From the NCBI GenBank assembly GCA_009694475.1, contig SHUX01000005.1, positions 1 to 39,983 of the forward strand: DNA of 39,983 bases. The letters are read 5' to 3'. Both the position numbers and the translations under genes were made by a program. Every line of letters begins with the position of its first letter. Within the stretch, counting starts at the first letter, position 1. The notes beneath the pieces were generated by a model. The model worked only from the letters and a program-made list of their open reading frames with translations, was not told where the DNA came from and did not search any database. Below, piece after piece: positions 3,540 to 39,983 of the stretch. The stretch comes from Thermoleophilia bacterium. Its GTDB lineage: Bacteria > Actinomycetota > Thermoleophilia > Gaiellales > F1-60-MAGs149.

Positions 3540-3597
3540 TCGTGTTCCTAGGAGGACATGACAAGTGCGCACTTGTCATGTCCTCCTAGGAACACGA
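3540..3597. repeat. 58-bp perfect palindrome with no spacer (REP-like)
   Basis: Bases 3540-3568 are the exact reverse complement of 3569-3597. The central part is GACAAGTGC/GCACTTGTC and the arms carry CCTAGGAGGACATGA/TCATGTCCTCCTAGG. It starts 18 bases after the stop of the gene at 2865 and ends 6 bases before the acs -10 box. As RNA from the upstream gene it would fold into a stem of up to 29 bp without a U-tract. As DNA it covers the -35 region of acs. GACAT/ATGTC sits at the same distance from the centre as in the palindromes at 7143 and 39145. Confidence 0.9.
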
Positions 3598-7062: not shown

Positions 7063-7142
7063 CGCGTCCAACTCCACCCGCCTCGCACGAGCCAACGCGC
7101 GAAGCCGCCAACGCTTGTCTGGCCTCTATGCGCAGAGCAGGA

Positions 7143-7176
7143 AGCGACATTTTGGGCCCGGGCCCAGAATGTCGCT
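7143..7176. repeat. 34-bp palindrome, REP-like, centre GGGCCCGGGCCC
   Basis: Dyad with centre between 7159 and 7160 and no spacer; one mismatch (T7152/G7167, a wobble pair in one orientation of RNA). Arms are AGCGACATTTTGGGCCC and its near complement. It shares TGGGCCC and GACAT at identical offsets with the palindrome at 39145. It lies 4 bases before the gluQ -10 box, so it spans that promoter's -35 region. Confidence 0.85.
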
Positions 7177-16234: not shown

Positions 16235-17112
16235 CACGCCTCCTTGCCCTGGGCGCGAGTGCCCGCAGTACGAAGCGCGCGCTTTGTTAGTACGCGTACG
16301 AGATCACGCTTGTAATCGGCCGGACCACGCAGGTCGCTGACCGGGTCGGAGGCTGCAGCAGCCAGCACGCCGGCCTGCTCGATTGCCTCTGCATCGTCGA
16401 TCGACTTGCCAATCAACGAGGCTGCGGCGGCGGCCGCATGGATCGTCAACGGGCCGACGTTCGTGAGGCCGATCGAGGCCTCCGTGATCGTCGTACCATC
16501 GAGGACGATCGAGACGCCAACCGCAGCGGCCGCATAGTCGCCAACCTTGCGCTCGATCTTCTTGTAGGCAGAGCCCTGGCCCGGCTTGGGCATCGGGATG
16601 CGGGCCTCGACCAGGATCTGGTCGGCACCCAACTTGGTCTCGAACATCGAGGTCTGAAAGTCGGCCGCGCTATGCACGACAGCGCCGTTCGGACCAACCG
16701 CGTGCAGTTCTGCGCCTAGCGCCGTGGCAACCGTTGCCCAATCGCCCGCCGGGTCGCCGTGCGCGACCGAGCCGCAGAACGTGCCGCGGTTGCGGATCAG
16801 CGGATCGGCAATGTGCTGAGCCGCGTCGAGGATGATCGGATAGCGATCACGGATCAACTCGGAGCGCTCGAGCTCGCCATGACGGACGAGTGCACCGATG
16901 CGGAGCATGCCGTCGGACTCCTCGAGCGTGTCGAGTCCAGCGATGTTGTTGATATCGACGATCAGGCTCGGGCTTGCAAGCCGGAGCTTCATCATCGGTA
17001 GCAGGCTCTGGCCCCCGGCCATAATTTTGGCGTCGCCTCCACCGGTGGCGAGGGCCTGCACGGCCTCGTCTACCGAGGTCGGGGCGACATATTCGAAACT
17101 GCTTGGTAGCAC
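16234..17112 (-). CDS. coxM: CO dehydrogenase medium (FAD) subunit
   Basis: A 292-residue flavoprotein that passes electrons from CoxS to quinone. The FAD motif AGGQSLLP lies at about 32-39. The second motif, usually TIGGS, is TFCGS within [19 protein letters not shown]. The GTG at 17112 ([11 protein letters not shown]) has GAAAGGGGAT upstream as ribosome site and gives the family length. The open frame continues further left without a sensible product, so longer versions are rejected. Confidence 0.94.
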
Positions 17113-39144: not shown

Positions 39145-39178
39145 GCGGACATGATGGGCCCGGGCCCATCATGTCCGC
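39145..39178. repeat. 34-bp perfect palindrome, REP-like, near RAYT gene
   Basis: Centre between 39161 and 39162, no spacer. Arms are GCGGACATGATGGGCCC and its exact complement. It lies about 115 bases downstream of the RAYT stop, the usual place for a cognate REP. Against the palindrome at 7143, GACAT and TGGGCCC match at the same offsets (13 of 17 arm positions read by eye). Confidence 0.85.
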
Positions 39179-39293
39179 CCACCTGCAAGGAGTTCCGCGC
39201 GTCTTCGCTACACCCACGTCTGCACTGACCGCCGTCCAAAGGCCCAAGTTGCGCCACCCGCCAGTGCATCGTCTGAGTGCATACATGCTTTTG

Positions 39294-39983
39294 TCAGCCG
39301 AAATGAGGCCGGACCGCGCTCTGCGAGACCAGACGCCGAACGTGCCGTTCGGAGTATCCGGTGTCCTTGACGATGGCCTCCAGTGAAATTCCCACTTGCG
39401 CCATCACCAACACCCGGTGCTGTTTCAGTTCGAGTCGCGTCATAGGTGGCGGCGCAATCGGCGTGTCAGTCAACACGAATCGTTCGTACGCTTGCGCATC
39501 AACGAATCCGAATGCACGCAACACCTCATCACGATCGAACCACTCCGGCGCGACTCGTTTACCGAGCAAGATCGAGTGTGTACTCCAAACCCACTTCGCC
39601 GGGTCTTGCGCCAACTTGTGTAGCACCGGGTTCATCGGCACATACCGGATGAGGCGCTGAACATGCAGGTCATCCTCTGGGTGGACGACGTCGTAGCGAC
39701 GTCCAACGAGTGCCCCACGCCGCTCCTCGCGCCTGTTACGCACGTTCGCCAGCTTCGACAGCCCTCGGTGCATTGTTTCGGCCAGCGGCACGGCGTCGCC
39801 CCTAACTATGAGGTGGTAATGGTTACCTAAAAGGCACATCGCTAATACCTGCACACCGAATTCCAGTGACCGGTAGCCGATCTCCGTCCAGAAACACTGA
39901 GCATCGTCGTCATGTGGAAACAGAAAGTCGTTGTTCACGCTCCGACCAATCACGTGGAGCATGCGACCGCCATCGTCATATCG
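39294..39983 (-). CDS. REP-associated tyrosine transposase (RAYT, Y1/IS200-like), 5' end outside window
   Basis: A Y1-type HUH nuclease of the RAYT group, which is single-copy, lacks IS ends and acts on REP palindromes (family knowledge). Seen from the internal ATG 39962: the HUH pair in LLGNHYHLIVRG (His48, His50), catalytic Tyr in LIRYVPMNPV (about 107), and AKWVWSTHSIL. The C-terminal part (TRLELKQHRVLVMAQ...TGYSERHVRRLV) looks like a helix-turn-helix. The frame stays open to the window end, so the start probably lies beyond 39983. Confidence 0.87.
   Translation of the reverse strand, partial: RYDDGGRMLHVIGRSVNNDFLFPHDDDAQCFWTEIGYRSLEFGVQVLAMCLLGNHYHLIVRGDAVPLAETMHRGLSKLANVRNRREERRGALVGRRYDVVHPEDDLHVQRLIRYVPMNPVLHKLAQDPAKWVWSTHSILLGKRVAPEWFDRDEVLRAFGFVDAQAYERFVLTDTPIAPPPMTRLELKQHRVLVMAQVGISLEAIVKDTGYSERHVRRLVSQSAVRPHFG

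Follow-up and report, generated by a model that had tools for sequence, protein, structure and literature searches.

A RAYT gene between loop-less palindromes in an uncultured freshwater actinobacterial genus: a probable TIRtron/REPtron-like system

At the end of an actinobacterial contig, a gene for a RAYT, an HUH-Y1 transposase-like protein (positions 39294-39983, minus strand), lies beside a perfect palindrome without a loop (39145-39178), which raises the question whether the two belong together and, if so, as which kind of system. The window, the whole stretch of DNA analyzed here, is the entire contig C71 (39,983 b) of the draft genome G000, a MAG of 1.81 Mb in 124 contigs that is 75% complete. 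Its host genus is uncultured, freshwater and actinobacterial. An actinobacterial host had been considered likely in the initial annotation and was supported by the two nearest relatives of the RAYT, which belong to the same genus and come from 'uncultured actinobacterium' MAGs from Loclat. The comparison set comprised 13 congeneric genomes, three other genera of the family and 113 further genomes of the order (129 in total), and RAYT relatives were found in 85 of them.

The window holds the 229 3′ codons of the RAYT gene, whose ORF leaves the contig end. By a protein search of G000, the 5′ part with the first 49 residues was located, at 100% identity, at the end of contig C101. The ends of the two contigs share an exact overlap of 149 b, the start codon lies 15-16 b into C101 beyond this overlap, and the joined gene encodes 234 amino acids. 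A repeat artefact at this join is excluded, since two contigs from other species are collinear across it: CAINDT010000140.1 (G007:C140), a single contig with the orthologue, over 4.1 kb at 75.7% identity, and CAJCBN010000383.1 (G009:C383) over 2.1 kb.

The protein had been annotated as a Y1-type RAYT with HUH and tyrosine motifs, and both were found (NHYH and YVPMNP). H-x-H, Y and NP are invariant in an alignment of seven proteins of clades A and A′, which are described below. Six of the seven clade members were matched by Y1_Tnp (best 3e-7) and six by HTH_23 (E down to 0.002). For the window protein itself the sequence profiles were sub-threshold, HTH_23 and NCBIfam REP_Tyr_transpos (2.1e-10) both falling under their curated cut-offs. 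The best PDB matches of an AF2 model (pLDDT 76.7) were all IS200/IS605-type transposases, including 4er8 (E. coli TnpAREP), so that the RAYT is predicted to have the Y1 transposase fold, and the modeled C-terminus consists of three helices, as expected for an HTH. Among G000, G007, and G009 the RAYT shows a dN of 0.08-0.12 and a dS of 1.0-1.8 (near saturation), i.e., a dN/dS of about 0.06-0.08. With dN far below dS between these species, purifying selection on the protein is strong. Full-length RAYTs of each clade are present in one copy per genome.

The palindrome at 39145-39178, designated class A (GCGGACATGATGGGCCC/GGGCCCATCATGTCCGC), lies 115 b away from the RAYT stop codon, in agreement with the first description, and can form a 15-bp stem with a 4-nt tip as single-stranded DNA (-18.9 kcal/mol). 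A second flanking palindrome, which the initial annotation had suggested looking for beyond position 39983, is present on C101, upstream of the gene at 175 b from its ATG. The class A cores around the joined gene are thus located at -175 from the ATG and at +125 after the stop. With 22 copies in 1.81 Mb, simple arithmetic gives a chance of about 0.2% that a particular gene end has a palindrome at 200 b or less, and of about 6e-6 that both ends do. Class A palindromes on both RAYT flanks were also found in G002, G007, and G009, and the order flank, palindrome, RAYT, palindrome, flank is kept in G007 and G009. The locus in G002 (L029, G002:C23:11670-15336) has outer flanks 88% identical to those of G000 and an inverted RAYT, only 49% identical in protein, which sits exactly between the two palindromes. 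Since the palindromes delimit the exchanged segment, the cassette was probably swapped or re-inserted there.

A copy of the palindrome 32 kb away, which had also been noted before, was recovered at 7143-7176, upstream of a plus-strand gene; it matches the flanking palindrome over 28 b at 86% and has an identical 14-b core. It is one of 22 exact copies of the class A core TGGGCCCGGGCCCA in G000, compared with 0 for the reversed control. The degenerate 28-b class A pattern has an expectation of 0 in the window and was never seen in shuffled windows. A chance origin of the class A palindromes was ruled out by the shuffles, the reversed control and the distribution among genomes. The class A core is confined to the genus of the window: it occurs in nine of the 13 species (22, 29, 36, 19, 23, 19, 20, 8, and 20 copies), is absent from the other four congeners and the three other genera of the family, and has 0 or 1 copies in each of the 113 further genomes, i.e., at most one in each of the 116 other genomes of the order.

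According to a crude hexamer gene model covering 93% of the DNA, 20 of 26 class A copies in G000 are intergenic (nine in codirectional, seven in convergent and four in divergent gaps), and many are found 9-40 b past a gene end. The copy L025 (8389-8416 on G000:C67), about 70 b from the end of contig C67, combines an arm of the RAYT-flank type (GGACATGA) with a decayed opposite arm (TAGCGTCC). An imperfect 54-b palindrome at 16950-17003 of the window (82% over the arms) is unrelated to class A and to class B, which is described next.

Every RAYT detected in the family had its flanks inspected. In clade A (four RAYTs) both flanks carry TGGGCCCGGGCCCA (TGGGCCC/GGGCCCA), whereas the three RAYTs of A′ are flanked by TGGATCCGGATCCA (TGGATCC/GGATCCA) and the two of clade B by GGACATGACAA-N8-TTGTCATGTCC with the cores CAAGTGC/CAAACCC; for the clade B member on G010:C84 just one flank lies inside the contig. 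The other clade B member is a second RAYT of G000 itself (C31), with class B palindromes on both sides. A maximum-likelihood tree supports A and B as clades and recovers A′ as a group (support 92/95). Mapped onto this tree, the palindrome labels require the minimum possible number of changes, a value as low being reached in 0 of 200 shuffles. Whether RAYT clade and palindrome class go together had been proposed as a test in the initial annotation; on the flanks they do, as A, A′, and B are each bordered by their own palindrome. Because RAYT and palindrome type change together across sister species, the RAYT probably spreads or maintains the palindromes.

The class A′ core was detected in four congeners only, with 14-37 copies, and the class B core in six, with 26 copies in G000. 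One class B copy, a perfect palindrome of 58 bp with the core GGACATGACAAGTGC/GCACTTGTCATGTCC, is located at 3540-3597 of the window and would be the cognate of the second RAYT on C31, not of the window RAYT. The class B palindromes (this one and L128-L147) have extended arms that are specific to each copy, and several show an asymmetric head, AATCCAGG-CC--CTCG, ahead of the stem. Further RAYTs of the genus were also inspected. Five distant ones (L035, L040, L041, L045, and L046) have GGGGTCAGACCCC-type palindromes on both flanks, which fit the GGGGWSAS TIR type, and L038 (G005:C11:102323-103006), a sister to clade B, is flanked by a 42-b near-palindrome, CCTCGAGGTGGCTCGGTCCGAAAGGACCGATTCACCTCGAGG. 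Another five distant members of the family (in G014 and G015) showed no convincing common palindrome in their flanks.

For A (three genome sets), A′, and B, half-sites were aligned on the dyad. All three classes share one loop-less layout of 30 bp, a mirrored [G/C]GACA-N3-core7, and differ only in their cores. Located 11-14 b away from the dyad, at one and the same distance in all three families, the GACA box is conserved to 94-100%, apart from one A′ position with 71%. At the stem foot, GT[AG]G was observed in 15-17% of the A half-sites and in 4-13% of those of A′ and B, compared with a background of 3-5%. Given its presence in only 15-17% of the A half-sites, it is not the conserved guide, so that the earlier remark that no GTAG foot is evident was right in the main, although at 15% of half-sites the motif is above background. 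A literature search for the motif GGGTCAGACCC gave nothing relevant.

The outer arms beyond the consensus vary between copies yet pair within each copy. Their mean paired run is 3.00 for A in G000 (permuted 0.98), 2.38 for A in G002 (1.52) and 4.96 for B (1.15), and in each of the three sets this mean was reached in 0 of 2000 permutations. Pairing copy by copy suggests that a change in one arm is accompanied by the matching change in the other. This could reflect quasi-palindrome repair, the explanation we would prefer, or selection for a hairpin. Insertion into pre-existing hairpins was also considered as a cause, but the empty sites show no obvious leftover hairpin.

Copies of the palindromes also occur as doublets of fixed spacing. 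Close pairs of class A′ are exactly 37 b apart in 12 of 14 cases in G005 and in 8 of 9 in G007, and 11 class A pairs across G007, G009, and G012 (e.g., L242, L243, L247, L249, and L251) are exactly 192 b apart, with 0 in the control. The 162-b spacers of the latter are mostly related without indels, at about 35-57% identity for most pairs vs. 29% in shifted controls. Neither a mirror hairpin nor mirror complementarity was found in this spacer; the conserved fold obtained with RNAalifold was weak, though it exceeded column-shuffled controls (z -7.6). The 192-b doublets look like elements of about 220 b whose length is constrained. Unlike G005, G007, and G009 with their doublets, G000 has mainly single copies.

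The occupancy of individual sites differs between the species. One intergenic site is empty in G005, holds a single palindrome in G000, G002, and G003 and a 192-b doublet in G007 and G009. The copy at 7143-7176 is shared with G002 and G003 and missing from the aligned position in G004-G009, the site of the class B palindrome at 3540-3597 is empty in G004, G005, G006, and G008, and G003 has an extra class A copy near window position 7097. As the genomes compared for the insertion sites are merely 70-90% identical, the exact junctions are uncertain.

The initial observation is real, and it was understated. We hold with good confidence that the locus represents a cognate RAYT/palindrome system of the TIRtron/REPtron-like kind, in which an HTH-bearing RAYT would mobilize or maintain a spacerless palindrome lacking GTAG. 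The RAYT would be a single-copy, vertically kept gene bounded by spacerless palindromes of 30-34 bp, with non-coding copies scattered between genes. In single-stranded DNA, e.g., the lagging-strand template, the palindrome would fold into a hairpin, which the RAYT may recognize by the conserved [G/C]GACA box at the foot of its stem and the family-specific 14-bp core. Its HUH/Tyr site could then nick beside the stem, and the hairpin would be rejoined or transferred to other single-stranded sites, mostly beside gene ends, as a monomer or as a doublet of fixed spacing. Binding, cleavage and transposition, like any role in RNA stability or termination, are what we infer from the sequence comparisons.

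This confidence is limited by genomes that have palindromes and lack the matching RAYT. RAYT-A was not detected in five of the nine A-bearing genomes, a large share (G003, G010, G011, G012, and G013), of which G010-G013 are incomplete MAGs and G003 lacks the RAYT-flanking locus itself in its bin. G009 has 32 A′ copies and no detected RAYT-A′. Palindromes in related genomes without any RAYT had been named beforehand as an argument against the pairing, and this is literally the situation in G011 and G013, with 20 A copies each and no RAYT whatever at E≤0.01. We do not count it as a refutation, because these MAGs are 82% and 71% complete and the loss of REPtrons in some strains is already known (PMC3733652); it does cap our confidence. 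Within the genus, the presence of RAYT-A and of A palindromes is not associated by itself (4/4 vs. 5/9, P ~0.18 by arithmetic), and hence the functional link rests on the flanking, the co-switching and the shared layout.

The orphan palindromes would fit a reading of the palindromes as host regulatory or structural sites, such as targets of a dimeric regulator or a nucleoid protein or intrinsic terminators, between two of which a RAYT merely inserted. Perfect dyads resemble operators, the position shortly after gene ends is frequent, and the arms keep a complementarity specific to each copy. Against this, copies stand in convergent and divergent gaps alike (7/26 and 4/26), no T-run follows the stem in the copies inspected, spacings fixed at 37 and 192 b are unexpected for operators, and three palindrome families each follow their own RAYT clade on the flanks, so that we regard such an origin as improbable. 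Still harder to credit is an autonomous IS200/IS605-type or other insertion sequence, itself transposing, with MITE-like derivatives. The single full-length copy per genome in each clade (i.e., no multicopy full-length element), the one chromosomal locus shared by G000, G007, G009, and G002 and the strong purifying selection speak against it, although palindromes do bound the RAYT, composite elements of about 220 bp with two palindromes exist, and the cassette between the palindromes in G002 is inverted and replaced.

The palindromes could also be relics of an extinct or trans-acting RAYT, with RAYT-A kept for a domesticated job, e.g., hairpin processing at replication forks. RAYT-A is vertically conserved with a dN/dS of ~0.07 while five of nine A-bearing genomes lack it, and several copies occupy the same site in G000, G002, and G003 and are therefore old. 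Site polymorphism among the congeners and the extra copy specific to G003 indicate turnover since the species split, and we give this reading a small chance, slightly better than that of host sites. The cognate system remains the preferred explanation.

RAYTs are vertically kept relatives of transposases, and a genus with three RAYT clades and three matching palindrome families of common layout and differing core is a natural specificity-swap system. Empty, single and double versions of one site exist naturally, and the genus lends itself to asking if GACA, as a second guide box, can stand in for GTAG.

Among published systems, the pairing of RAYT and palindrome proposed in the initial annotation stands, whereas the classical GTAG REPtron is not the nearest category: this is the TIRYT/TIRtron (PMC3733652), and the RAYT probably belongs to TnpAY1 subclass 2.1, RAYT group 1 (PMC6006769). 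TIRYTs/TIRtrons were described as RAYT-like genes between inverted repeats, with GGGGWSAS in the majority, not all, of the TIRs, some of which are self-complementary and form moderately abundant families, as in S. maltophilia and K. versatilis (Di Nocera 2013, PMC3733652). RAYT-like genes with self-complementary inverted repeats and moderate genomic families are therefore already published. The window RAYT shares with TIRYTs and subclass 2.1 the position between inverted repeats, NHYH (general pattern NH[YF]H), Y[IV]xxNP, the C-terminal HTH and the length (234 aa vs. about 235-240 aa, typically about 238 aa), and the distant RAYTs of the same genus with their GGGGTCAGACCCC palindromes conform to GGGGWSAS as well. 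Unlike TIRs of this type, classes A, A′, and B lack GGGGWSAS, are loop-less 30-bp dyads with a common GACA box and swapped cores, and have 20-40 dispersed copies and fixed-spacing doublets. No REP-like sequence was reported at subclass 2.1 genes (Quentin 2018, PMC6006769), and as REP populations are not reported for the large HTH-bearing RAYT group, its role is unsettled. The word 'Actinobacteria' is absent from the main text of both papers (PMC3733652, PMC6006769), and the open-access literature examined holds no description of a spacerless, GTAG-less palindrome class.

With classical REPtrons (Nunvar 2010, PMC2817692; Corneloup 2021, PMC8266576) the locus has in common a gene between two inverted cognate palindromes, dispersed and mostly intergenic copies, and an own repeat family for each RAYT, with co-evolution. 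It differs in the extra C-terminal HTH of the RAYT, in the lack of a conserved GT[AG]G foot and of a loop in A, A′, and B, and in copy number, with 8-37 cores per genome where a family is established compared with usually more than 100 classical REPs. The REPs of S. maltophilia also have perfect stems, but with a 3-nt loop and GTAG. REPINs were described as doublets at a preferred distance, with a spacer whose length is conserved and whose sequence is not (Bertels and Rainey 2011, PMC3116915), and the doublets described here likewise keep one distance and a spacer length but not its sequence. They differ from REPINs in spacing (37 b for A′, 192 b for A in G007/G009), in a 162-b spacer without mirror complementarity and in the mainly single copies of G000. 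It is possible, if somewhat short of an even chance, that these palindromes constitute a distinct REP class of Actinomycetota, loop-less and 30 bp long, in which a [G/C]GACA box acts as guide instead of GTAG and each HTH-bearing RAYT has its own exchangeable 14-bp core; they would spread as singles or REPIN-like doublets, with RAYT cassettes exchanged or inverted between palindromes at one locus. What appears to be new, relative to the open-access literature examined, is the common layout with exchanged cores, the REPIN-like doublets of HTH-bearing RAYTs, the in-place exchange of cassettes and the actinobacterial host.
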